Source of the DNA: Anaerolineales bacterium
Lineage (GTDB): Bacteria > Chloroflexota > Anaerolineae > Anaerolineales > Villigracilaceae
Assembly: GCA_030834895.1 (NCBI GenBank)
Contig: JAUQXA010000018.1
Coordinates: forward strand, 124,001 to 188,000
Reading direction: 5' to 3'
DNA length: 64,000 nt
This document shows, piece by piece, positions 18,445 through 39,930 of the stretch (the stretch's first letter is position 1; the number at the start of each line of letters is the position of its first letter). The notes below the pieces were generated by a model. It was given only the letters and a program-made list of their open reading frames with translations, searched no databases and was not told the origin of the DNA. The translations under genes were made by a program, and so were the position numbers.

Positions 18445-18499
18445 TGTGAAAAATCTCCCCAGCGGGGACATCCCATCCGTTCCCGTCCGTGAATCCGTT

Positions 18500-19612
18500 A
18501 TGAAGTCCGTTGACAACCGCCCCCTCAAAGTCTTTCTCTGCCACGCCCACCCTGACGCGGACAAAGTTCGCGCCTTGTATGCCCGCCTTAAAGCCGATGG
18601 CGTGGACGCGTGGCTGGACAAAGAAAATATCATCCCAGGTCAGGACTGGGAAATGGAAATCCGCGATGCTGTGCGCGAAAGCGACATTGTGGTGGTCTGT
18701 CTTTCCAAACAGTTTAGCCAAAAGGGATATCGCCAAAAAGAAGTGCGGATTGTGTTGGACGAGGCAAGCAAGCAGCCACCAGGTGAAATTTTTATTATCC
18801 CCGCACGACTGGAAGAGTGTGATTATCCCGAAAGCCTGAAACATCTGCATGGCGTGGACTTGTTTGAAGAACGCGGCTATGAATATTTGATGCGTGCCCT
18901 CCGCCTGCGGGCGGACAAGATTGGCGCGGTCTTGCAATCAAAAAAAGGCTGGTTGGGCGGCTTGACCTCACCAACCAAGAAACCCGATACGCAAAAGCCT
19001 AAGCCTGTTGTTAAACCGCTACCCAAACCAAAACCAGAAGAACCCAAGCCTGTTATTACCCAAAGACCGCCGCGAAAATGGAATACTCAAATGATTGCGG
19101 CGATTGCTGGCGTAGTTGTTATTTTTGCCGCAATATTCGGTTTGCCATGGCGTCAATGGCTTTCCTCTTCTCCAACAACGACAAGCACAGTCACATCTAT
19201 TATCGAAACTTCAACCGCGACGAAGATACCTACAGCAATTGCTACAGTCACCAGCATAGTCCCAACGACATTCACTTCAACTATCACACCTACTGTACCG
19301 ACTTTAACCTTTACTTTCACTCCCGATCCATGGTTGACCTCAGGTAAAATCAACAACAGTGAAGGTGGAGGCGCAAACCTGCGTCAGAGTCCCAATGGAA
19401 AATATTTAATGACGCTGGACAACGGAACAATTGTAGAAATTTATCCTGACTTCAAACAGGTGAACGGCATAGCGTGGCTGCGTGTCGCCTTCAACCGCGA
19501 CGGACGGCGTGTGGAAGGCTGGCTATTGGAATCGGTGGTGAGTTATTCCACTCCCGTACCGAACTTTGAGCCACTTGCAACCTCGACAACAGGGATCACA
19601 CCCGCACCATAA
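18500..19612 (+). CDS. Membrane TIR protein with outer SH3-like domain
   Basis: The start at 18500 (MKSVDNRPLK) is downstream of the inferred transcript start and gives 370 residues. Residues 8-135 are a TIR_2 domain: VFLCHAHPDADKV, DAWLDKENIIPGQDW and the helix GYRQKEVRIVL, where Glu81 aligns with the catalytic Glu of NAD-cleaving TIR domains such as SARM1. A Lys/Pro linker (160-193), one membrane helix (about 198-214), a Thr/Ser-rich stalk and an SH3b-like domain (about 285-350, GANLRQSPNGKYL to VEGWLLESVV) follow. The order implies TIR inside and SH3 outside. SH3b domains often bind peptidoglycan. A damaged copy of the 5' end lies 1.4 kb upstream. Confidence 0.88.
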   Translation: MKSVDNRPLKVFLCHAHPDADKVRALYARLKADGVDAWLDKENIIPGQDWEMEIRDAVRESDIVVVCLSKQFSQKGYRQKEVRIVLDEASKQPPGEIFIIPARLEECDYPESLKHLHGVDLFEERGYEYLMRALRLRADKIGAVLQSKKGWLGGLTSPTKKPDTQKPKPVVKPLPKPKPEEPKPVITQRPPRKWNTQMIAAIAGVVVIFAAIFGLPWRQWLSSSPTTTSTVTSIIETSTATKIPTAIATVTSIVPTTFTSTITPTVPTLTFTFTPDPWLTSGKINNSEGGGANLRQSPNGKYLMTLDNGTIVEIYPDFKQVNGIAWLRVAFNRDGRRVEGWLLESVVSYSTPVPNFEPLATSTTGITPAP

Positions 19613-29860: not shown

Positions 29861-30616
29861 ATGACGTTCCTATACATTCTTATCGGCGTCGTTATAGGCT
29901 GGTTTATCGGCTTTTTGGATTCCAACCGGAACATGCAGAAGAAAGTCCGGGCCGCTGAATTCAATGCTGAAATAAAGATCGAGGAAGCCGAGAAAAGAGC
30001 CGCATTGGCTGAAAGAGGCTTTGCGGCGGCCAACCCCTCGCAGGATGATCCCGGGCTTCTGCGCCTCAAAAAAGTCAACGGGCGGCATACGCTGGAACTG
30101 GATGGGGTTCTTGTTCCGGCCGAGTTGACGCTTGACATGAGAAAGCGCCTGATGGAACTGATCACGGTCTTTCGATTGTGGCTCGAGCCGGGACAGACTT
30201 CACAATCTGCGTCCCAACCTGTCACGCCAGCCAGGGTTTCAACTCCACCCGCGCCCGATCCAATTCGTGAGGCTGTTTATGGTTCTCCACAGCCTATGCC
30301 TGTACGGGAGATGATTTCGCATCCCATGCAGACTTCACCCCAGCCTGCCGCCCAACCCAAAAAGCCTGAGCCCGATAAAAACATCACCTCCCTCAGCATT
30401 GTCCAGCAGATCGATACGGTCTTGCAGGAACACCTGGCGATTTCGCATCTTGCCGGGCGCGGGGTTCGTTTACAGGAATCCATTCAGGGCGGCGTGGAAG
30501 TTTATGTCGGTTCGACAAAATTCGAAATGGTTGATGATGTACCCGATGCGGAGATTAAGGCCGCCATCCGTTCCGCCATTGCGGAATGGGAAAAGAAGTA
30601 CACCCCCGGAATGTAA
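29861..30616 (+). CDS. Membrane-anchored protein of unknown function
   Basis: A 251-residue protein with an N-terminal membrane helix (FLYILIGVVIGWFIGFL), a charged coiled-coil stretch (QKKVRAAEFNAEIKIEEAEKRAALAERG) and a Pro/Gln-rich linker. A C-terminal alpha/beta domain (about 185-251) contains QIDTVLQEHLAISHLAGRGVRLQESIQGGVEVYVG. I do not recognise a family. It is 3 bases after mutM and likely in the same transcript. The topology suggests a cytoplasmic body tethered to the membrane. Confidence 0.75.
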   Translation: MTFLYILIGVVIGWFIGFLDSNRNMQKKVRAAEFNAEIKIEEAEKRAALAERGFAAANPSQDDPGLLRLKKVNGRHTLELDGVLVPAELTLDMRKRLMELITVFRLWLEPGQTSQSASQPVTPARVSTPPAPDPIREAVYGSPQPMPVREMISHPMQTSPQPAAQPKKPEPDKNITSLSIVQQIDTVLQEHLAISHLAGRGVRLQESIQGGVEVYVGSTKFEMVDDVPDAEIKAAIRSAIAEWEKKYTPGM

Positions 30617-30698
30617 TTTGGAGTCCGACAGCTTGCTGCCGAAACTATGACCCTCGCCCCAGCCGCCATTTCCGGCGGCTGGATGCTTTAAAAGTCGA

Positions 30699-31556
30699 TC
30701 AGTCTCTTTTGAATCGCGCGGTGAGGATTGGGCAGGTTACATCGTCAGCAATCTCTGCGGTGACATTGGGCGCATAGAGTTGCCGCAGGGCATTTGCGCT
30801 GTATGGCGACCCCATGCACAGCAGGTCGTAATGTCCCTCTTTATTTTCAGCCAGTATTTCCTCAACAACATTCCCCTGACGCGCCTTGACATTTGCGACC
30901 AGTCCGTCGTCTTTCGCGATCTCCAATGCCTGGCGCAGACTTCGCCCAACGGGTGTGTTTGTGTCGGTCAGGTGCCGCCAGTTGGCGCTGACTGTTTTTG
31001 CGGTTGGATAATCCAAATCTATCGGAGGGATAATGTGCAACAGAGTGATTTCAGCCCGGCTTTTCATGGCCATTTGCATAGCAATATGTTCCGCTGTTAC
31101 TTCGTAGCCCAACCCGCCCAGACAGATCAGGATTTTTTTCAGCGGCAATCTCGACTCCGGGACGTACAGGATGGGCTGTTCGATTTCCTCCATCAAATGA
31201 CGGATGGAGCGTCCCGTCAACATGCGGCGGATCTGCGGACGTCCCAACGGACCCGAAACAACGATGCAATCTTCCTGCCTTGCCCTGCGCGGGATGACTT
31301 CTTCCGCGTTGCCGTTCTGCACCTCGAGGCTGTATGTCACACCCTTTTGCTGGAACAGTTCAACAGCGCGCGCGAAGATGTCCTCCAGCGGGTGATGGTC
31401 ATCTATTGCCGCCGGGCTTAGGTTCTCTGTCACTCCAAGTAGCGTGATATTTTTTTCGAGCGTCGATGCCAGCCATGCGCCGTATTCGATCGAGGGCCAG
31501 GTCCCTTTAAATCCATTGGTCGCAATTAATAAATCGGGTTTCATAAACGGTTCCAT
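30699..31556 (-). CDS. Universal stress protein with two UspA domains
   Basis: A 285-residue protein with two tandem UspA domains, about 5-135 and 140-285. Each has an N-terminal strand (LLIATNGFKG; KILICLGGLG), a helix, and a C-terminal strand (QPILYVPES; CPILTARF). The ATP-binding G-x2-G-x9-G-S/T motif is partly kept in the second domain (LLCMGSPYSANALR) and altered in the first (VVSGPLGRPQIRRMLTGRS). The ATG at 31556 directly follows the upstream ChrA stop; a second ATG four codons later is a possible start. The role is stress signalling or nucleotide binding. Confidence 0.85.
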   Translation of the reverse strand: MEPFMKPDLLIATNGFKGTWPSIEYGAWLASTLEKNITLLGVTENLSPAAIDDHHPLEDIFARAVELFQQKGVTYSLEVQNGNAEEVIPRRARQEDCIVVSGPLGRPQIRRMLTGRSIRHLMEEIEQPILYVPESRLPLKKILICLGGLGYEVTAEHIAMQMAMKSRAEITLLHIIPPIDLDYPTAKTVSANWRHLTDTNTPVGRSLRQALEIAKDDGLVANVKARQGNVVEEILAENKEGHYDLLCMGSPYSANALRQLYAPNVTAEIADDVTCPILTARFKRD

Positions 31557-32093
31557 TTATCGAAATAAAAATACGCCCAAAACTCCCGCGCCAAGCAAGA
31601 CCAGCGGGGAGGGGACTTCGAACCACAGCGCGATTGCGCTGAGTGCGGCGATAAACAATGTGCGTTTATCGATTTTTTTCGTTTGCCCCACATGAAAAAG
31701 CTCCCACGCCACCATGATGATCAACGCGGCAACGGCTGGACTCATGCCCTTCACGAAGCCCTGCAGCCAGTTCTCCTGCTGAAACTGCTCCAAGACGGCG
31801 GCAACCGCAAACATCAGTACCGTGGGTGGTAGCACCGCGCCCAATAATGCTGTAAATACGCCCGGCACTCCGCCTGCGGCATAGCCGACAAACATGGCGA
31901 GTTTCAGGGCCTCGCTTCCCGGCAGGACATTGGAAAAGCCGACCGCTTCCACAAAGCGTTCCTCGCTCATCACTTTGCCAACCGCCTCTTTGTAAAGCAA
32001 TCCCACCGAGGCGGGACCCGACGGCGAGAGCAGGTTCACTTTGAGGAACATCCACAGGAGACGGAGCCAGACGGAGAATTTTGACAGATTCAT
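31557..32093 (-). CDS. Half-size chromate transporter, second gene of pair
   Basis: The ATG at 32093 is used because it overlaps the upstream stop (ATGA); the longer frame is unlikely. The 178-residue membrane protein has one CHR domain: FLKVNLLSPSGPASVGLLYKEAVG, then GFSNVLPGSEALKLAMFVGYAAGGVPGVFTALLGAVLPP. Short CHR proteins work as pairs to export chromate or other anions. The partner starts just upstream. The family is firm; chromate as the natural substrate is uncertain. Confidence 0.88.
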   Translation of the reverse strand: MNLSKFSVWLRLLWMFLKVNLLSPSGPASVGLLYKEAVGKVMSEERFVEAVGFSNVLPGSEALKLAMFVGYAAGGVPGVFTALLGAVLPPTVLMFAVAAVLEQFQQENWLQGFVKGMSPAVAALIIMVAWELFHVGQTKKIDKRTLFIAALSAIALWFEVPSPLVLLGAGVLGVFLFR

Positions 32094-32677
32094 GAGGAAA
32101 GAAAAATAATCCCGATGATGCCTGCCGCAACGACAACGAGTCGTTCGGGAGCTTTCCGCCACATGGCAACCATGCTGACAATGCCAATCGCCCAGCCGAC
32201 CCAGCTAGTCTCGCCGCCCTTTTCGAAAATCTTCCAGGCTGTAAAAAGCATCAGTATGGAAATGGCGGGTGCGAGTCCTTCAACAAAATTGCCCACCCAG
32301 GCTTCACGGCGCAGGCGGTGCAGGATCATGGTCACGCCGAGGATGATGACGGTGGGCGGCAGGATCGAGCCGGTCAATGCCACCAACCCGCCGGGGACTC
32401 CGCCTGCTGCATAACCGATGTACATCGCCAGTTGCAGGGCGTCACTGCCGGGCAACACCGAGGAAAGTCCGACCGCCTGGATAAACTGGCTCTCGGTCAC
32501 GAAACGTCCCACCGCTTCGTGATAGAGCAAGCCCACCGAGGCCGGGCCGGAAGTGCTGAGCAGGTTGACTTTGATAAAAGTCCAGAAAAGAAGAGGGAGG
32601 ATGTTCAAGGGTATTAGTTGTCGGCTGAATTTGGTTTCAATTCCCGGCAAATGGGAAGGAAGGCAAAAGTTTATCAT
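32090..32677 (-). CDS. Half-size chromate transporter, first gene of pair
   Basis: A 195-residue membrane protein with one CHR domain: FIKVNLLSTSGPASVGLLYHEAVG and GLSSVLPGSDALQLAMYIGYAAGGVPGGLVALTGSILPP. It is clearly related to the following gene (the SGPASVGLLY and GYAAGGVPG blocks are shared), so the pair arose by duplication. The start at 32677 has AAGTGA nearby; a later start is possible because the first 25 residues are not hydrophobic. Together they should form one transporter of two unequal halves. Confidence 0.88.
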   Translation of the reverse strand: MINFCLPSHLPGIETKFSRQLIPLNILPLLFWTFIKVNLLSTSGPASVGLLYHEAVGRFVTESQFIQAVGLSSVLPGSDALQLAMYIGYAAGGVPGGLVALTGSILPPTVIILGVTMILHRLRREAWVGNFVEGLAPAISILMLFTAWKIFEKGGETSWVGWAIGIVSMVAMWRKAPERLVVVAAGIIGIIFLSS

Positions 32678-32849: not shown

Positions 32850-35756
32850 ATGAATAAAGCAGTGACACGACCATTGAAGGCGTTTCTCTGTCACGCATCC
32901 GGCGACAAACCGGCGGTACGTGAGATGTATAAACGTTTGGTTTTTGAAGGAGTGGATGCTTGGCTGGACAAGGAAAAGCTCCTGCCTGGTCAGGATTGGC
33001 GGGTGGAAATTCCCAAGGCCGTCCAGGAGGCGGATGTCGTCATTGTGTTCCTGTCGAAGAATTCGATCACCAAGGAGGGATATGTCCAAAAGGAAATCAA
33101 GAACGCACTGGACATCGCAGATGAAAAACCCGAAGGTACGATCTTTCTGATTCCCGCGCGGCTGGAGGAGTGTCTTGTACCTGAACGGTTGAGCCGCTGG
33201 CAATGGGTGGATTTGTTCGAGGAAAACGGTTTTATCCAGTTGTTGCGTTCATTGAAACTGCGCGCTAGGGCTGTGGGAGCGACCATCGAGCAGGCTTCTT
33301 TTCAGGAATCAGATAGTGAAGTTGTGAGACGGGCGGAACAACTCTACACCGAAGGACTTGCCGCTTTTTATACTGAAGAGTGGGACAAGGCCTGTCGGCG
33401 TTTTCAAACGATCCTGAGCGAATACCCGAATCATAAAAATGCGGCGGAAAAACTGGCAGAGGCCGAGACACAGAGAAATCTGGCGCGATTATATGCCAAC
33501 GCTGAACAGGAGTACAAAGTCGAGAATTGGACAGCGACCATTCAATCTTTGGAAGACCTGCTGCAAAGAACGCCGGACTACAAGGATGCCACGCAGTTGC
33601 TCAGAAATGCGAGAAAGCAAAAGCGGTTGAAAGAACTGTATGTTGAGGCAAAGGCATTGCACATGGCGCAGAAATGGCATGCGGTTCTCAAAGTCTTCGA
33701 GCAGATCACCGCCATTGAACCGGCCTGTCCCGACCCCGACAACCTGCTGCCGTCTGCTCAAAAGGAAGTCGCAGAACTAAAGCGCATTGCAGAACTGAAC
33801 GAGCAATACAGCGTCGCTGTCCGCCGGATGGATGCGGGGGAGTGGTTGGAAGCTCGCACGTTGTTAGAGAAAGTCCACAAATCGCAAACCGGTTTCATGG
33901 AAACGGAACGCTTGTTGAAAAAAGCCGAAACTGAAATTATCAAGATGGAGGAAAGGGACAAGCGGATTGAGCAAATCAACGTACTTTACGAACAGGCGCA
34001 TGGACTCGTCCGCTCGAAGAACTGGCGCAAGGCATTGGAGAAGATCGAGGAAATCCATCAACTGGACAGTTTGTTTGAAGACAAGGACGAAATTACAGAA
34101 CAAGCCAAAGCCGAACTGGCGTATGAGGAGCAGGAAATCCAGCGGCAAAATGAGCTGGCGGCCATGTATGCCGAATCCGTGCGGTTGATGCAGGAAGGGA
34201 AATATCAGGAGGCGTTGGATAAATGGGATGAAGTGCGTGCGGTTGACTCGAAATATCCGGATAGGCAGGGGGTACAGAGGATGGCAAAAAAGAAACTGAC
34301 GGAGATGACCAAGCCGGTGAAGATCAAGCCGCGACTTGTGATCAAGAAATCTTTTTGGAAAAGAACAGCGTTTTTTGTCGTGGTTATGGTGGGTGTAGTT
34401 GGCATCACGGCGTTGATAAAGTTTGGTCAACAAATGTTATCCGTTCCAACAACTGTTCCAACGCGGACTATGGTTTCGTTTTTTACTTCGACGAAAGTTC
34501 CTGCCAAAATCAGCACACCCCGACCGACAACCGCCATTCCTGTCACAGGCGGCTACACTGACCCGACGATGTATGATGATTTCGGGAGAAAGGAATTTGA
34601 AGGAATATATAACATTGCCTTATGGGAATGGCAGTCAGATGATCCCGACGCTAAAATCATTCAAGACAATGGCGTTTTGAAAATTAACTCAAGTGGATAT
34701 AACAAAGGAGCAGGGTTAGGTATTAAAAAAATTGCAGACATAAGTTCGCCTTATTTTGTGGAGGTATCAACAAGTCTGGAGCCAAATCAGAATGGTGGGA
34801 TAGGTTTCAACTTCAGAATAGATAGTGTTGGTGGGTATTGCCATATTTGGGCAATGAATCAGGCGCAAAATATCAATTGCACCCATGCAGTTGGACAGCA
34901 AGAAGAGAGTACAGAATTTATAAAAATAGCCCAAGGCACCAGACATACACTTCGTATTGAGATAATTCCTGGACCACCCCTCAACATTGTTTATATGGTT
35001 GACGGCGAAATAATCGGCGACTTCAAAATTCTTTCCACCGAGAATACCGTACACGTCGAAAGTTTTTCCATTTCAAGTGGATGCAGTGGTGGCGGCTGTA
35101 TTGATAAAAATCCAAGGACTTTAACAGGTTATGTTGACTATGTCCGCATGGGCGCGATTGAAGATGACCCCGTTATCTATGATGGTTTCGAAAATACAAG
35201 TTTTGCTGGGAAGTTTGATCCAGCCAAATGGGCTTATCTTCCTGGTCATCATTATCCAGACGGCAGTATGTATCAGGAAGATGGAAAAATGATATTTGAG
35301 CAGAATGGTACTGGAGACAGGTGGCAATTCTTAAAAGGAATTGCTGTCGATTCATATCCTAAGACATCCGCTATCTTGGAGAGTAAATTGAAACTCGATT
35401 CTGAGGTGAAAGGTGGCGACATCCAGTTGAGGTTTCAAAATAAAAATGGATTGGCTGTGTGTGGAATAAGTGGTAGCGACTCCAGGGCTTATTGTTGGTG
35501 CGATATGGATGGTCATCATTATCTAGATGAACGTTTCTCTGTAAATACAAGCGATTGGCATGTTTTTAATATTGAATATGAACAACCGACAATGACTTAT
35601 ACTTTTCGTGTCGACGATCGTCAAGTCGGGTATTGTTCATTATTCAAGTCCAATGACTCCCCTGATCTATTAGCTGATTTCGCTATTGGGGGGTGGTTGC
35701 GATCCAATAGTGTAAAAGGATATTTTGAATATATAAAGATTGTGCCCCTGCAATAG
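32850..35756 (+). CDS. Receptor-like TIR-TPR-TM protein with two outer jellyroll domains
   Basis: A 968-residue protein. Residues 8-140 are a TIR_2 domain close to that at 18500 (AFLCHASGDKPAV, DAWLDKEKLLPGQDW, GYVQKEIKNAL with Glu82 as the NADase-type glutamate). Residues 155-490 are helical repeats of TPR type with motifs such as W-D-K-A-C-R-R-F and YQEALDKWDEV. A membrane helix (about 505-523) and a Thr-rich stalk follow. Two related beta-sandwich modules (about 570-765 and 772-968; YDDFGRKEF and YDGFENTSF, each ending in GYVDYVRMG or GYFEYIKIV) resemble laminin-G/DUF1080 carbohydrate-binding folds. Base composition falls in the 3' half (more AT). No Thoeris partner is adjacent. Confidence 0.88.
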   Translation: MNKAVTRPLKAFLCHASGDKPAVREMYKRLVFEGVDAWLDKEKLLPGQDWRVEIPKAVQEADVVIVFLSKNSITKEGYVQKEIKNALDIADEKPEGTIFLIPARLEECLVPERLSRWQWVDLFEENGFIQLLRSLKLRARAVGATIEQASFQESDSEVVRRAEQLYTEGLAAFYTEEWDKACRRFQTILSEYPNHKNAAEKLAEAETQRNLARLYANAEQEYKVENWTATIQSLEDLLQRTPDYKDATQLLRNARKQKRLKELYVEAKALHMAQKWHAVLKVFEQITAIEPACPDPDNLLPSAQKEVAELKRIAELNEQYSVAVRRMDAGEWLEARTLLEKVHKSQTGFMETERLLKKAETEIIKMEERDKRIEQINVLYEQAHGLVRSKNWRKALEKIEEIHQLDSLFEDKDEITEQAKAELAYEEQEIQRQNELAAMYAESVRLMQEGKYQEALDKWDEVRAVDSKYPDRQGVQRMAKKKLTEMTKPVKIKPRLVIKKSFWKRTAFFVVVMVGVVGITALIKFGQQMLSVPTTVPTRTMVSFFTSTKVPAKISTPRPTTAIPVTGGYTDPTMYDDFGRKEFEGIYNIALWEWQSDDPDAKIIQDNGVLKINSSGYNKGAGLGIKKIADISSPYFVEVSTSLEPNQNGGIGFNFRIDSVGGYCHIWAMNQAQNINCTHAVGQQEESTEFIKIAQGTRHTLRIEIIPGPPLNIVYMVDGEIIGDFKILSTENTVHVESFSISSGCSGGGCIDKNPRTLTGYVDYVRMGAIEDDPVIYDGFENTSFAGKFDPAKWAYLPGHHYPDGSMYQEDGKMIFEQNGTGDRWQFLKGIAVDSYPKTSAILESKLKLDSEVKGGDIQLRFQNKNGLAVCGISGSDSRAYCWCDMDGHHYLDERFSVNTSDWHVFNIEYEQPTMTYTFRVDDRQVGYCSLFKSNDSPDLLADFAIGGWLRSNSVKGYFEYIKIVPLQ

Positions 35757-35773
35757 TGTGAAATAAACTTACT

Positions 35774-36307
35774 TCATGCCATCACCGCCCCTTCCATCAA
35801 CAACAACCATTCCTTGGTAGGCAGTCCCTCTCCACCGCCGTAGCCGTGGAGTTTTCCGTCCGTGCCGATGACCCGGTGACAGGGAATCACCAGCGGCATG
35901 GGGTTGGTAGCGTTGGCCCGTCCCACGGCACGGTAGGCGTGGGGACGCCCAATCTGCTCGGCGATCTCGGCGTAGGTGCGTGTCTCACCATAGGGGATTT
36001 CATAAACGGCCAGCAATGCTTTCATCTGGAACGGTTTCAAGGTTGACCAGTCAATGGCAAAGGTGAATTTGCTACGTTTGCCATTCAGGTATTCGCTGAT
36101 TTCCTTTGCGTAGGGACGGGTGATTTTGGGGTTTGACCCAATCTCAGCCTTCAGACGTATTAAGTAGGCATCCAACTCTCGCTGGGACTTGGCCCATTCA
36201 ACGGCAACCAGCCCCAGGGCGGAGACCGCGAAGCGCAGGTCCCCAAGGGGGGTACGATTCAATTCGTCAAGATAAACTTTGAGGGTAGGGAAACTCATTT
36301 TTGCCAT
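35774..36307 (-). CDS. ogt: Methylated-DNA-protein cysteine methyltransferase
   Basis: A 177-residue suicide repair protein that takes alkyl groups from O6-alkylguanine. The active site is IPCHRV, the helix-turn-helix is TYAEIAEQIGRPHAYRAVGRANATNP with the Arg finger, and the C terminus reads GYGGGEGLPTKEWLLLMEG. The N-terminal domain is of average length. Both ogt and ada homologues look like this; no Ada transcription domain is fused, so ogt is used. It is convergent with the TIR gene. Confidence 0.93.
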   Translation of the reverse strand: MAKMSFPTLKVYLDELNRTPLGDLRFAVSALGLVAVEWAKSQRELDAYLIRLKAEIGSNPKITRPYAKEISEYLNGKRSKFTFAIDWSTLKPFQMKALLAVYEIPYGETRTYAEIAEQIGRPHAYRAVGRANATNPMPLVIPCHRVIGTDGKLHGYGGGEGLPTKEWLLLMEGAVMA

Positions 36308-36532
36308 TCTCCATCCGAATCGTTTACATTATTGTTAATTGTCGGACAATCGTAGGGCAGTCGTAGGTTAAGCGTCAAGTACCATTTAAGTAAACATGAT
36401 AAATTTGGCGTTGTAAGGTGATTTCTCTTCTCCTCCTTTCAAAGGGAACCGCGGTCGGCGTCCGCGGTTCTCGGCGTTTAAAGGGGGAATTATCGCAGTA
36501 TAATCTCGTTATCAAACTCTTGCGAGGGTAAC
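36308..36532. other. Intergenic region with a small palindrome and a promoter
   Basis: GAACCGCGG-tcggcgt-CCGCGGTTC (36446-36470) is a perfect 9-bp hairpin. AGTATAAT ends near 36501, with GAGGG seven bases before the next ATG. No gene is seen. Confidence 0.55.
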
Positions 36533-37519
36533 ATGCCTGTACAAATTACGATCATCGGTCTCGGACAAATCGGCGCTTCGATGGGGTTGGCGCTTGCAAC
36601 ACATAAGGAATCCATCCTGCGCGTAGGCCACGATAAAAAACGTGAAGTGGAGCGTGAAGCGTTAGAAATGGGGGTGGCGGATAAAATGGAACATAACCTG
36701 CCCACTGCGGTGCAGGACGCCAAAATGGTGGTGCTGTCCATTCCTCTCAGCCAGGTGAAGGAGACTCTGGAGTTCATCGCGCCCGATTTGCAGGAGGGTG
36801 CGGTGGTTCTGGATACCACACCGATCAAGGCGGGTGTGCAAAAATGGGCAAAGGAAATATTGCCCGATGGATGCTATTACGTGGGACTTGCTCCCGCGCT
36901 GAATCCCGAAGCTCTGCATGATTTTGGAGCCGGTCTGACCACGGCCAAGGCTGACCTGTTTTCGAAAGGCCTTTTCATGATTGATGCTCCTGTCGGAGTG
37001 CCCGAAGAGGCTGTGGTTCTGGCGATGGATTTTGTCCGCCTCTTGGGTGCTGAGCCTGTCCTTGCCGACCCGCTTGAATCAGATGGGTTGATGTCCACGG
37101 TGCACCTCCTGCCGCAGCTTATGGCAGCTTCGCTGTTGAATGCAACAATTGACCAACCCGGCTGGCTGGATGCGCGTAAAGTTGCAGGACGCGCCTATGC
37201 GGTGGCGACTTCGGGGATGGCGTATTCGGATGAGATCGATTCATTGCGCATGTCTGCGTTGCAGAATCGCGCAAGTGTTGTCCACGCACTGGATGTGATC
37301 ATCGCCTCGCTGCGCGGTCTGCGCGACGATATCGAAAATGAAAACGATGAAGGTCTGGCGTTGCGATTGGAATCCGCATTGAAGGGACGTCAACGCTGGA
37401 TGAGTGAACGGCTTGCGGCGAATTGGGCGAACACCAAACGGGCTGACACGCCTGATTATCCATCGATGTCTGAAAGGCTGTTTGGCGGTTTGTTTGCCAA
37501 AAAAAACCGCAAGAAATGA
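36533..37519 (+). CDS. Prephenate dehydrogenase-like protein
   Basis: A 328-residue NAD(P)-dependent dehydrogenase of the TyrA fold with GAGGG upstream. The Rossmann loop is IIGLGQIGASMGLAL, with VVLSIPLSQVKETLEFI and VVLDTTPIKAGV in the usual places, and the helical domain contains DSLRMSALQNRASVVHALD. TyrA enzymes usually have G-x-H-P-M/I-x-G after the D-x-x-S-x-K region; here the matching segment is VGLAPALNPEALHDFG without the His. Tyrosine synthesis is therefore probable but not certain. It overlaps the GIY-YIG gene at ATGA. Confidence 0.78.
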   Translation: MPVQITIIGLGQIGASMGLALATHKESILRVGHDKKREVEREALEMGVADKMEHNLPTAVQDAKMVVLSIPLSQVKETLEFIAPDLQEGAVVLDTTPIKAGVQKWAKEILPDGCYYVGLAPALNPEALHDFGAGLTTAKADLFSKGLFMIDAPVGVPEEAVVLAMDFVRLLGAEPVLADPLESDGLMSTVHLLPQLMAASLLNATIDQPGWLDARKVAGRAYAVATSGMAYSDEIDSLRMSALQNRASVVHALDVIIASLRGLRDDIENENDEGLALRLESALKGRQRWMSERLAANWANTKRADTPDYPSMSERLFGGLFAKKNRKK

Positions 37520-37776
37520 TCTATTACTGCTACATCGTCGAGTGCGCCGATGGAACGTTTTATACCGGTTGGACAACGGATCCCGAAAGGCGGGTGTTGC
37601 AGCATAACAAGGGCGTGGGAGCAAAATATACCAGCACCCGCCGCCCGGTCACGTTGGTGTATTTGGAAGAGCATCCGAGTCGAATATCCGCAATGAAGCG
37701 CGAACTTGCCATCAAGAAGATGAAGCGGGCGCGGAAAAGTAAACTGGCTGAAGAGTGGGAGCGCATACACGGGTAG
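37516..37776 (+). CDS. GIY-YIG endonuclease-fold protein (UPF0213/YhbQ type)
   Basis: An 86-residue protein starting in the ATGA overlap. The GIY-YIG motif is YYCYIVECADGTFYTGWTTD, with the catalytic Arg in DPERRVLQHNKGVGAKYT and the Glu in KRELAIKKMKR. This family covers small stand-alone nucleases of unclear role (YhbQ, YazA). The ends fit the usual 80-100 residue size. Confidence 0.9.
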   Translation: MIYYCYIVECADGTFYTGWTTDPERRVLQHNKGVGAKYTSTRRPVTLVYLEEHPSRISAMKRELAIKKMKRARKSKLAEEWERIHG

Positions 37777-37793
37777 ACAGGTACACAGTAAAA

Positions 37794-37831
37794 CAAGACC
37801 CCGAAATATCTTCTCGGGGTCTTGTTTTTTT
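37794..37831 (+). terminator. Terminator flanked by GTAGACAGGTACAC repeats
   Basis: CAAGACCCCGA and TCGGGGTCTTG pair over 11 bp and run into TTTTTTT. The repeat GGTAGACAGGTACACAG lies before it (37772-37788) and CTTGTCTACCTGTGTACC after it (37841-37858), the same motif as near 1.88 kb. Confidence 0.88.
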
Positions 37832-37862
37832 ACCTTTCTACTTGTCTACCTGTGTACCGTCT

Positions 37863-38414
37863 TTACTCCGTAAACAACGGCAGATGTCCCAAAGAGATAA
37901 TGTCAGACCACTGAGCACGGTCGCCTTCGGTAAGGATCGCGGCCTGCGCCACCACATTCGAATTGGCTTTATCCAAAATCATCCGCATCCCCTGCAGAGT
38001 CGAACCGGTGCTGATGACATCGTCTAAAATGATGACCTTCTTGTTTTGAATGACGTCACGGTCCTTCTCATCCAGGATCAACATCTGCGGTTGACCGGTG
38101 GTAATCGAAAGTGTCTCCGCTCTGACCGCGTCGCCCATGTATGGTTTGTACGTTTTTCGCAGGATGACATACGGCTTCTTCAATTCAACTGACAGTGCGT
38201 GTGCCAACGGGATGGACTTTGCTTCCGCCGTGACGAGAATGTCGTGCTCGATGCCCTGAAGTTTTTTGGCGAGTTCACGCGCGCTGGCTTGCACCAATTC
38301 GGTATCGCCCAAAATGTTGAGGATGGCAATTTTCAGCCCTGGTTTGATTTCAAACAAACGCAGGTCGCGCTTGACGCCCGCGATTTCGATGGAATAATGC
38401 TGGCGATTTGACAT
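37863..38414 (-). CDS. Phosphoribosyltransferase, adenine/xanthine type
   Basis: The ATG at 38414 (MSNRQHYS) with GGAGAAA upstream gives 183 residues. The PRPP-binding loop is VIILDDVISTGSTL, the PPi loop region is TAEAKSIPLAHALS, and the flexible hood KTYKPYMGDAVRAETLS resembles adenine phosphoribosyltransferases. The long frame upstream is not needed. It salvages a purine base. The exact base is not certain from sequence alone. Confidence 0.88.
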   Translation of the reverse strand: MSNRQHYSIEIAGVKRDLRLFEIKPGLKIAILNILGDTELVQASARELAKKLQGIEHDILVTAEAKSIPLAHALSVELKKPYVILRKTYKPYMGDAVRAETLSITTGQPQMLILDEKDRDVIQNKKVIILDDVISTGSTLQGMRMILDKANSNVVAQAAILTEGDRAQWSDIISLGHLPLFTE

Positions 38415-38479
38415 GAGGTTTCTCCGCGAAAAAATTGTCTGGCTGGGCAAGTTTATCATAACTTGATATAGAAAATTTG

Positions 38480-38488
38480 TGCTATACT
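38480..38488 (+). promoter_or_regulatory. Extended -10 promoter, probably leaderless
   Basis: TGCTATACT ends six bases before the ATG at 38495, without a Shine-Dalgarno. It shares TTTGTGCTATACTYTGTCCA with the ftsK promoter. Confidence 0.6.
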
Positions 38489-38494
38489 TTGTCC

Positions 38495-38728
38495 ATGCCC
38501 ATTATTCGTGCATCTGACATCGGAAGTTATCTCTACTGCCATCGGGCTTGGCGCTACCGCAAGGATGGGGTCGAATCCGAGAACCAGGCGGAACTCGCCG
38601 CCGGGACTGAGCTTCACCAAAAACATGGACTCAAGATCCTCTCTGCCAGCCTGCTCCGCACCCTCGGTTTGATTCTGCTTCTGGCGGCTGTCCTCACGTT
38701 GACGGCTTACTGCGCTGCCCAGTTGTAA
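38495..38728 (+). CDS. N-terminal half of a split Cas4-like nuclease, membrane-anchored
   Basis: A 77-residue protein. Its first half, RASDIGSYLYCHRAWRYRKDG then ELAAGTELHQKHG, is the N-terminal segment of Cas4/Dna2-type PD-(D/E)XK nucleases: the first Fe-S cysteine (Cys15), Arg17 and Trp19, and the motif His41. The rest is a membrane helix (about 53-72, LLRTLGLILLLAAVLTL). It ends with a normal stop where Cas4 would continue. The second half is encoded at 39409. A HEAT-like gene lies between them. Confidence 0.78.
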   Translation: MPIIRASDIGSYLYCHRAWRYRKDGVESENQAELAAGTELHQKHGLKILSASLLRTLGLILLLAAVLTLTAYCAAQL

Positions 38729-38742
38729 TCAAGGAGTGAATC

Positions 38743-39372
38743 ATGTCTGTGTTAAATCGTCTCGCATGTTTTCAGAATCGCCGCGACGAAGTCCCGAACC
38801 AGGAACTGGCACGTGACCTTGCCGTGAAGAAGGACAAAACGGGAATCCGCGAGATTGCCGAAAACCTGTGGAACAAGGATAAGAATATCCAGGCAGATTG
38901 CATCAAGGTCATGTATGAAATTGGCTACATCGAACCCGGCCTGATTGCCGGATATGCCGAGGACTTTATTAAGTTGCTAAAAAGCAAGAACAACCGTCTT
39001 GTTTGGGGTGCAATGGGTGCGCTTGTGGCGGCAGCAAAGATCGACCCCGACACGATTTTCAAGAACTTGGATGTCATCAAAAAGGCAAAAGCGATGGGTT
39101 CCGTCATCACCGTGGACAACGCCATCTCGGTGCTTGCCCTGACCGCCTCCGCTAACCCGAAACACAACGCCGCCATCTTCCCTGATCTGATTCGTCATCT
39201 TGCATCCTGCCGTCCGAAGGAAGTTCCCCAACATGCCGAGCGGACTCTTCCCGCGGTGAATGCGAACAACAAAAAAGAATTCGTCAAAGTTCTCGAAAAA
39301 CGCACCGAAGATCTTTCTGGCGGCGGATTGTCCCGCGTCAAAAAGCTCATCCGTGCCGCTGAAGCCCTATAG
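38743..39372 (+). CDS. HEAT-repeat-like protein
   Basis: A 209-residue soluble helical protein with AAGGAG upstream. Helix pairs such as NIQADCIKVMYEIGYIEPGLIAGYAEDFIKLL and NNRLVWGAMGALVAAAKIDPDTIF have the ARM/HEAT pattern, including the repeated alanine and the Pro/Asp turn. These proteins bind other proteins or nucleic acids. It is placed between the two parts of a Cas4-like nuclease, 14 bases after the first and 36 before the second, so a complex is possible. Confidence 0.72.
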   Translation: MSVLNRLACFQNRRDEVPNQELARDLAVKKDKTGIREIAENLWNKDKNIQADCIKVMYEIGYIEPGLIAGYAEDFIKLLKSKNNRLVWGAMGALVAAAKIDPDTIFKNLDVIKKAKAMGSVITVDNAISVLALTASANPKHNAAIFPDLIRHLASCRPKEVPQHAERTLPAVNANNKKEFVKVLEKRTEDLSGGGLSRVKKLIRAAEAL

Positions 39373-39408
39373 CCTGCCCACCGATTACTGATCACTGCTT
39401 ACTGGAAC

Positions 39409-39930
39409 ATGCTTTACCTTGCCCTTGCCTTGCTTATCATCGCCCTGTTCTTCTTCCGCCAGTCCAGCCGCCAGCGGAAGGAGGCGGGACTGCCCGGCGG
39501 ACGAATCATCTACACCGACACACGCGGATGGGGCAAGGTGGAGAAACCACTTTTTTATACCGCGATGGAGTTGACCGGCAAGCCCGATTATTTAGTCAAA
39601 CAAAACGGAAAAATCATCCCGGTGGAGGTCAAATCGGGACGAGCACCCGAAGCGCCTTACGACTCGCACATTTATCAGCTCGCGGCGTATTGTCTGCTGG
39701 TGGAGAAAACCTATCATACCCGCCCACCATATGGCATCATCCACTACGAGAACCGCGACTTTGCAGTGGACTACACCCGCGAACTGGAAAACGCTCTTGT
39801 TGACCTGCTTGTGGAGATGAAACGCGACGAACACAAAAAGGATGTCCCCCGCTCACACGAACAACCCGGCCGTTGTGCCAAATGCGGCTATCGAAATGTA
39901 TGTGACCAGAGTCTAATTACCGATCACTAA
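39409..39930 (+). CDS. C-terminal half of a split Cas4-like nuclease, membrane-anchored
   Basis: A 173-residue protein with an N-terminal membrane helix (YLALALLIIALFFF) and then the core of a Cas4-like PD-(D/E)XK nuclease. Seen are Asp60 in LTGKPDYLV, Glu73 and Lys75 in IIPVEVKSG, the Q-x3-Y motif (Gln90, Tyr94) and three cysteines near the end, Cys156, Cys159 and Cys165 (RCAKCGYRNVC), which would complete a 4Fe-4S cluster with Cys15 of the protein at 38495. No Shine-Dalgarno is visible. No other cas gene is in the window, so a DNA-repair or surveillance role is more likely than adaptation. Confidence 0.8.
   Translation: MLYLALALLIIALFFFRQSSRQRKEAGLPGGRIIYTDTRGWGKVEKPLFYTAMELTGKPDYLVKQNGKIIPVEVKSGRAPEAPYDSHIYQLAAYCLLVEKTYHTRPPYGIIHYENRDFAVDYTRELENALVDLLVEMKRDEHKKDVPRSHEQPGRCAKCGYRNVCDQSLITDH

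Follow-up and report, generated by a model that had tools for sequence, protein, structure and literature searches.

Bacterial TIR effectors, the exchange of effector domains and receptor kinases are already known. The best-known bacterial TIR proteins are intracellular sensors or effectors; Thoeris ThsB, TIR-APAZ, retron-TIR and AbTIR, which cleave NAD, are soluble and in most cases work together with partner genes or domains, and bSEFIR is a single-gene anti-phage protein. The bacterial receptor Ser/Thr kinases, named PknB-like, follow a different plan, in which an N-terminal kinase inside the cell is joined through a single transmembrane helix (TM) to a C-terminal outer sensor. Here we describe a protein of 968 residues, encoded in a 64,000-nucleotide stretch (the window) of contig JAUQXA010000018.1 from an Anaerolineales bacterium of the family Villigracilaceae, in which a TIR domain, a tetratricopeptide repeat (TPR) region, one predicted TM and two related beta domains, D1 and D2, follow one another (Table 1). 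With the NADase TIR proteins it shares a TIR domain with the conserved glutamate, and with the receptor kinases the predicted N-in, single-TM arrangement ending in an outer sensor; TIR and TPR here replace the kinase, for which Pfam gives no Pkinase match, and the jellyroll family of its outer domains is also found on kinases (loci L137, L141 and L146).

How does this plan compare with that of the animal TIR receptors? Toll-like and IL-1 receptors are single-span membrane proteins with a cytosolic TIR domain and an outer sensing part, according to the excerpt consulted of a TIR survey (PMC7075850), which covers animal receptors and actinobacterial TIR-TPR proteins and not bacterial TIR receptors. 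One span and a cytosolic TIR domain are, by prediction, common to our protein. However, the animal ectodomains consist of leucine-rich repeats (LRR) or immunoglobulin domains, neither of which has a Pfam match here, where D1 is predicted to be a concanavalin-A (ConA)-type jellyroll; they are N-terminal with the TIR domain C-terminal, whereas our protein has the reverse order; and our protein has a TPR stalk, and relatives in which the effector is swapped for a CHAT domain or a kinase. The likeness to animal Toll receptors that had been drawn in the original prediction, made from the nucleotide sequence of the locus alone, thus stands as a plan, and does not extend to an LRR match, to the domain order or to the inner enzyme, which is exchanged in relatives. 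No evidence was seen of a common descent of the two plans, and the protein is neither a TLR nor a Thoeris member.

Conflict systems of multicellular bacteria build TIR, caspase-like and kinase effectors into shared frames, and some of their variable C-termini bear a TM and extracellular domains; in the parts of the sources consulted (PMC7159879, PMC8195603) these systems are multi-gene (vWA-MoxR ternary, EACC/TRADD-N), whereas ours consists of a single gene whose frame is that of a transmembrane receptor. In diversity-generating retroelement (DGR) sensors, TIR, CHAT or kinase domains are joined to diversifying sensor domains, some of them periplasmic, and a reverse transcriptase diversifies the CLec domains (PMC10907252, in its consulted part), whereas our ectodomain has diverged and been replaced among relatives, no search for a DGR having been made. 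Among the open-access papers listed as matches, judged by titles and abstract starts and with subscription papers and most preprints lying outside, we recognised none on bacterial transmembrane TIR receptors. The bSEFIR model of PADLOC (PDLC03957) matches over the TIR domain and part of the TPR region (aa 22-414, E 1.7e-5; for L043, a close relative, E 6.1e-9), a weak score from a model that stops short of the TM and the ectodomain. Weak matches of the TIR domain to Aga_TIR (E 3e-14), RT-TIR, SAVED_TIR and ThsB were also found, as well as one to Retron_TIR far below its cut-off, and none of the matched models extends to the TM or the ectodomain.

What, then, can be discerned about the role of this protein? 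In a proposal to which we give about even chances, the protein spans the membrane once as a surface receptor and has the TIR domain as its output: outer binding would lead to NAD+ cleavage by this domain, and the cell would then be arrested or die. The layout on which this proposal builds had been foreseen in the original prediction, with TIR_2 and Glu82, TPR, one membrane helix and two related beta domains, and is confirmed by Pfam, hydropathy, a profile of the jellyroll family (A1, of ten rows, D1 and D2 both among them) and the structural model; the numbering given there was correct to within two residues, the helix expected near 505-523 being found at aa 507-525.

Table 1. Features of the TIR receptor-like gene and its conserved neighbours (positions in the window)
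Feature	Position	Strand	Basis
Whole gene, 968-aa TIR-TPR-TM-2x lectin-like protein	32850..35756	+	ORF + Pfam
TIR_2 domain, aa 8-143	32871..33278	+	Pfam TIR_2 match
Glu82 codon, putative catalytic Glu in GYVQKEI	33093..33095	+	alignment, 3h16_A match
TPR region, aa 156-485	33315..34304	+	TPR_2; helical in model
Basic juxtamembrane stretch, aa 487-506, predicted cytoplasmic side	34308..34367	+	K/R count
Single membrane helix, aa 507-525	34368..34424	+	hydropathy, model, flanking charge
Pro/Thr/Ser-rich extracellular linker (predicted), aa 526-572	34425..34565	+	residue composition
D1, predicted concanavalin-A/GH16-type jellyroll, aa 573-773	34566..35168	+	AF2 model, VIA
D2, second domain of D1's family, aa 775-968	35172..35753	+	profile match, model
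Chromate transporter half (chrA), conserved neighbour	32090..32677	-	Pfam Chromate_transp, synteny
Chromate transporter half (chrB), conserved neighbour	31557..32162	-	Pfam Chromate_transp, synteny
ogt (6-O-methylguanine-DNA methyltransferase), conserved neighbour	35774..36307	-	Pfam, synteny

The TIR_2 match covers aa 12-131 (E 7.9e-25; 88.1 bits against a curated cut-off of 28) and is followed by a TPR_2 match (E 1.8e-8). Glu82 is invariant in all ten rows of the close TIR alignment, and a TIR-only profile aligns it with the glutamate of 'QKEL' in the solved TIR structure 3h16_A; the residue at this position is catalytic in NAD-cleaving TIR domains. Among the 29 TIR_2 places of this genome, 25 can be aligned in the region of Glu82, with glutamate in 23 of them and a gap in two. 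As far as sequence can tell, NAD cleavage by the TIR domain is plausible. In the full-length AlphaFold2 (AF2) model (10 rows, mean pLDDT 68.7, pTM 0.31) the TIR domain starts with alternating beta and alpha elements, and the TPR region forms a long helical stretch with block pLDDT mostly 70-91. When the full-length sequence was compared with solved structures, only weak TIR matches came up, and SARM1 is absent among the best 60 of the 66 matches of the TIR-only profile. That profile supersedes an earlier one, A2, which was contaminated by FGE domains from unrelated C-termini and whose FGE matches are uninformative. In L051 (4775-6847), a TIR-type domain whose helix is degenerate has aspartate in the catalytic column; a TM comes next, and after it regions that by eye resemble vWA and FGE.

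The TM has a mean hydropathy of 2.45 and is preceded by seven Lys/Arg and no Asp/Glu in 18 residues and followed by a single Lys/Arg in 18; the full-length model also places a helix here (506-520), with low pLDDT, and Pro, Thr and Ser make up 38% of the first 60 residues beyond the TM. Judged by its flanking charge, the protein is predicted to be oriented N-in. The same geometry recurs among the proteins that bear the jellyroll: a search of 152 genomes of the taxonomic family with A1 gave 23 places in 20 genomes, from which, leaving out a partial match in G050, 21 proteins were taken, and with L101 from another family of the class they make up 22, nine of which supplied profile rows. The jellyroll lies C-terminal of a TM in all 22, and in 17 there are more Lys/Arg before than after that TM.

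Modelled alone with four rows, D1 reaches a pLDDT of 83.5 and a pTM of 0.83, and by Foldseek and VIA-align it matches glycoside-hydrolase family 16 (GH16) and other ConA-like structures over its whole length, the best match being 6t2o_BBB (Z 19.1, root-mean-square deviation 2.5 over 189 residues); 809 of the 999 chains aligned to D1, all pre-selected by Foldseek, have Z >=8. Both D1 and D2 are all-beta in the full-length model, with block pLDDT of 31-85 in D2, and a Foldseek search with that model, used for the fold class alone, gave mostly multi-domain jellyroll proteins, at TM-scores <=0.34 among the matches listed. A1 hits D2 at E 2.4e-61, D2 being itself a profile row, and D1 and D2 are its sole two places in this genome at E <=0.01; a single-sequence search with the ectodomain gave the self match alone. 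Since A1 misses a probably related outer domain in another TIR protein of this genome (C43_214018; DUF1080/laminin-G-like, with a 3keto-disac_hyd match of E 2.2e-5 under the Pfam cut-off), the counts based on it are lower bounds. Two cysteines are conserved in the ten rows of the family, one invariant and the other in at least 90%.

A comparison of these domains with laminin-G/DUF1080 folds had been suggested at the outset, and a fold of this type is supported by the D1 model and by the weak Pfam matches of relatives (3keto-disac_hyd in two of ten members, Laminin_G_3 in two of ten); the 968-residue protein itself has no match to Laminin_G_3 or 3keto-disac_hyd (DUF1080) at E <=1, and the distant relative L146 passes the Laminin_G_3 cut-off with 77.1 bits. 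The catalytic motif of GH16 follows the pattern ExDx(x)E, and a regular-expression search with this pattern found it in none of the 22 jellyroll proteins. As a ConA/GH16-type jellyroll that lacks the GH16 motif, D1 is predicted to have a lectin-like fold free of signs of GH16 catalysis, and D2 appears from its sequence to belong to the family of D1. The fold, taken by itself, suggests a sugar-like ligand. As a separate observation, L146 (1255-4203) has the order kinase, TM, PD40, NPCBM and laminin G, which makes it a receptor kinase whose outer domains include several of carbohydrate type.

A contrast between the two sides of the membrane is seen at the same locus in relatives. Five congeneric genomes (L043, L063, L065, L066, L068) carry the gene between the neighbours it has in the window, a chromate transporter pair and a universal stress protein gene on one side and ogt and a prephenate dehydrogenase-like gene on the opposite one, although L065 ends at a contig end beyond the shared neighbours and the order in L063 differs past the dehydrogenase. 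The search for the architecture in relatives that had been proposed at the outset thus gave four further genomes in which TIR-TPR-TM is followed by a jellyroll at this locus, and a fifth that has another C-terminus there. Among homologues with the same inner half, L035 and L067 repeat L043, L041 and L068 repeat L044, and L045 repeats L063. Identity to our protein for L043, L065, L044, L066 and L063, in this order, is 93%, 88%, 80%, 79% and 79% in the TIR domain and 79%, 74%, 64%, 64% and 63% in the TPR region; for D1 it is 57%, 37%, 27% and 30% in the first four, and in L063 nothing stands above shuffled sequence, the C-terminal 147 residues there (most of the TM included) having a sub-threshold Pfam match alone. 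L043 has one jellyroll and then a different stretch of 109 residues with no Pfam match. In another genus of the same family, L062 keeps the TIR domain (83%), the TPR region (68%) and the neighbours on the ogt side, not those on the transporter side, and its C-terminus is a multi-TM module with ten hydrophobic windows over the cut-off, some of them overlapping.

Against L043, nonsynonymous divergence (dN) is 0.034 in the TIR domain, 0.124 in the TPR region, 0.364 in the TM with linker and 0.319 in D1, and synonymous divergence (dS) is 0.68, 1.68, 0.93 and 1.34, which gives dN/dS of about 0.05-0.39 over the four parts, with about 0.24 for D1 and about 0.39 for the linker; for D1 against L065 and L068, synonymous sites are saturated or nearly so. 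The outer part diverges several times faster than the inner one, still below neutrality, and the ectodomain at this locus appears from these alignments to vary by divergence as well as by replacement.

Exchange is not confined to the outer side. L101 starts with a CHAT domain (E 8.3e-27) in place of TIR, followed by TPR, TM and one jellyroll, with 52% identity to our protein over 324 residues of the TPR region and 32% over 184 residues of the D1-like domain; its 5-kb contig has no flanking gene in common with the window. In L064, CHAT is followed by a TPR region (39% identity over 211 aa) and then by a multi-TM part; in L103 the order is Ser/Thr kinase, TPR, TM, PD40 repeats. The multi-TM parts of the proteins at L064:5873-8839 and L062:6310-9417 share one stretch (27% over 154, E 2.7e-8). 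Matches to the TPR region occur in 54 of 346 genomes of the class, our own included, and one locus each from 24 of the other 53 was examined; besides L101, these are CHAT-TPR, kinase-TPR, TIR-TPR-FGE and TM-TPR proteins with listed identities of 26-38%. As the class proteins other than L101 and L064 could be alike as TPRs alone, we take the evidence for a shared frame from L101 (52%) and, less so, from L064 (39% over 211 aa).

The N-terminal parts of the 22 jellyroll proteins are TIR-TPR in five, TIR in four (L069 twice, L138, L139), a Ser/Thr kinase in three (L137, L141, L146) and CHAT-TPR in one. By eye, no N-terminal domain was recognised in seven (L070, L135, L136, L140, L143, L144, L145); of the remaining two, L142 is cut by the contig start and L071 has a sub-threshold LuxR remnant, whose GerE match (E 0.018) is below the cut-off, so that a LuxR-type fusion is not claimed. 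TIR-TPR-FGE proteins, such as L105, which has no TM after the TPR region, and, by eye, L106 and L107, are a possible cytoplasmic sister design. A CHAT protein of this genome, L147, was considered as a sister receptor and set aside, having no predicted TM.

Within its genome the protein has company. With 29 TIR_2 places in 5.65 Mb, this genome has the most in its genus, in which 45 of 46 genomes have at least one place at E <=1e-8 and the next has 28. Exactly one hydrophobic window over the cut-off is present in 13 of the 29 TIR proteins and six in one, the others having none, and all 13 single-TM proteins have more Lys/Arg on the TIR side. A Pfam scan of nine of the TIR proteins of this genome found PAN domains (C48_1638), FGE (C48_27616) and TPRs (C43_265610) in their C-terminal parts, some of which have no Pfam match, and WD40 repeats were recognised by eye in C45_35154, C15_37730 and C48_152053. 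Judged by these sequences, our TIR-TPR-TM-jellyroll protein is one member of a receptor-like group among the TIR proteins of this genome. A second such protein lies in the window itself (18446-19612, plus strand), with TIR, one TM, a long Pro/Thr linker and a weak C-terminal SH3_3 match. In another TIR-TM protein of this genome (L009:723-2066, minus strand) the TM is followed by two PAN/apple-type stretches and 12 cysteines, the PAN/apple module being familiar from animal secreted proteins.

At its own locus the TIR gene stands alone, in the opposite direction, inside the ogt-transporter gene pair. A search of 57 genomes of the genus for the chromate transporter gave 40 that carry it, 34 of them with no TIR-TPR match; the regions of 20 of these 34 were compared, five of these pieces being shorter than 3.5 kb. 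In nine (L185-L191, L193, L194) ogt abuts the transporter, with anything from a 22-base overlap to a 22-base gap and, in L190, with ogt matches in two frames; in two (L181, L182) a different gene of 394 aa lies between, in L195 there are ogt remnants alone, and in eight ogt is not in the piece. The TIR, TPR and D1 sequences of our protein match none of the 20 regions at E <=1e-6. On this comparison the TIR gene is accessory, because the ogt-transporter junction is intact in congeners that lack it. In L181 (6592-6678) the end of ogt occurs a second time, in part, next to the chromate transporter, and another gene separates this copy from ogt itself; the copy is a possible footprint of insertions at the locus, but the junction in the window was negative in the same test.

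The original prediction had noted no adjacent Thoeris or CBASS gene, and in a PADLOC scan of the nine neighbouring open reading frames (ORFs), between 29861-32677 and 35774-39930, no such model matched; nor was a ThsA-type effector gene found among these nine, an 86-aa GIY-YIG ORF at 37516 having been scanned by Pfam alone. The gene as a member of an operon or of a Thoeris/CBASS cluster is unsupported by neighbourhood, synteny and both scans. Two of the nine match other PADLOC models: a phosphoribosyltransferase (37863-38459) a ShosT model (E 1.2e-7), and a nuclease of Cas4/PD-(D/E)XK type (39409-39930, plus strand), 3.7 kb downstream, Cas4 (E 1.6e-23) and DruK models; L043, L066 and L068 have homologues of this nuclease, with gene order kept.

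How would such a receptor work? The two jellyroll domains may bind an outer glycan or glycoprotein, belonging to a phage, a predator, a neighbouring cell or the cell's own envelope. Such binding would cluster or rearrange the receptors, and the change would travel via the TM to the TPR stalk, which would hold the TIR domains apart or bring them together. Once assembled, the TIR domains would cleave NAD+, leaving less NAD+ or a cyclic ADP-ribose-type signal, and either may lead to cell arrest or death. The middle part would act as a general transducer between outer sensor and inner effector, which would explain why the ectodomain is replaceable and the N-terminal enzyme swappable for CHAT; conversely, CHAT or a kinase instead of TIR in relatives argues for such a transducer with an exchangeable output. 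Domains, topology signals, fold class, locus comparison and swaps were computed here, and we infer from them the ligand class, the clustering, the NAD cleavage and the outcome. The receptor plan of the original prediction, with a sensor outside and a TIR domain inside, is well supported by the topology signals, by the exchange of ectodomains at a single locus and by the presence of this ectodomain on kinases of receptor type; the sugar-like ligand and the inner signal by TIR activity that it foresaw may hold as well.

Several observations weigh against the surface receptor. The TIR domain is modelled at moderate confidence (pLDDT 43-79 per 10-residue block), and the residue four before Glu82, which is Trp in the WxxxE motif of NAD-cleaving TIR domains, is Tyr78 (among the 25 aligned TIR domains of this genome, Tyr occurs there in ten, Phe in three and Trp in two). 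The Lys/Arg difference is missing in five of the 22 jellyroll proteins (L070, L138, L141, L143, L144), and ConA folds serve also in enzymes and structural proteins. The TIR-TPR form is present in seven of the 152 family genomes, six in the genus and one outside it, no linked effector gene was seen, and dN/dS is below 1 wherever computable, so that the fast change of the ectodomain is no proof of positive selection.

It is rather unlikely, though the best placed of the alternatives, that the TIR domain is a non-enzymatic scaffold or adaptor in an environmental or nutrient receptor, for instance for polysaccharides, with no role in death or immunity. Such a role would agree with Tyr78, with a D1 fold nearest to GH16, with the housekeeping nature of the immediate neighbours and with the same ectodomain on Ser/Thr kinases, which are usually regulatory. 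However, Glu82 is invariant in the close family and its counterpart is kept in every aligned TIR domain of this genome other than the two with gaps, and the gene is accessory, the ogt-chrA junction being intact in its absence at nine congeneric loci. Moreover, L101 has a caspase-like CHAT domain as its effector instead, a variant that, as far as its sequence goes, favours a role in conflict or death over plain nutrient sensing.

Improbable, in our judgement, is an arrangement in which the jellyrolls are anchors to glycans of the cell wall, sheath or S-layer and sensing, of an intruder or of a protein partner inside the cell, falls to the cytoplasmic TPR region. Protein binding is a classic function of TPRs, seven proteins combine TM and jellyroll with no recognised inner domain, and TIR-TPR-FGE (L105) and CHAT-TPR (L102, L104) relatives have no TM after the TPR region. 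The pattern of conservation, however, is the opposite of that of a sensor under changing pressure, the TPR region being kept at 63-79% and the ectodomain varying from 57% to none, and the C-terminus is unrelated to the jellyroll in two of the seven family members compared (L062, L063). A chance fusion, assembly fusion or pseudogene with no function, which the 73 contigs and 6.97% estimated contamination of the assembly might bring to mind, is scarcely credible, as the frame is intact, dN/dS is low in all four parts, the architecture recurs at the same locus in other genomes, and synteny with congeners suggests that the contig belongs to this genome.

Anaerolineae-type bacteria, many of which are filamentous, might run a whole repertoire of surface receptors for recognition of self and non-self, a bacterial counterpart of Toll. 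In this tentative scenario, which we hold to be rather doubtful as yet, interchangeable ectodomains (jellyroll, PAN, SH3, FGE, WD40 and others) would be joined across one helix to interchangeable enzymes of death or signal type (TIR, CHAT, kinase), and phages, predators or neighbouring strains would exert the pressure under which ectodomains at fixed loci are swapped in situ. The orthologue series at this one locus amounts to a set of natural chimeras, with which it could be asked whether the ectodomain sets the ligand and TIR or CHAT the output. If the protein is indeed a TIR receptor that spans the membrane and senses through lectin-like domains outside, bacteria could detect a threat before its entry, and the plan of an outer sensor, one helix and a TIR domain inside would be present beyond animals.

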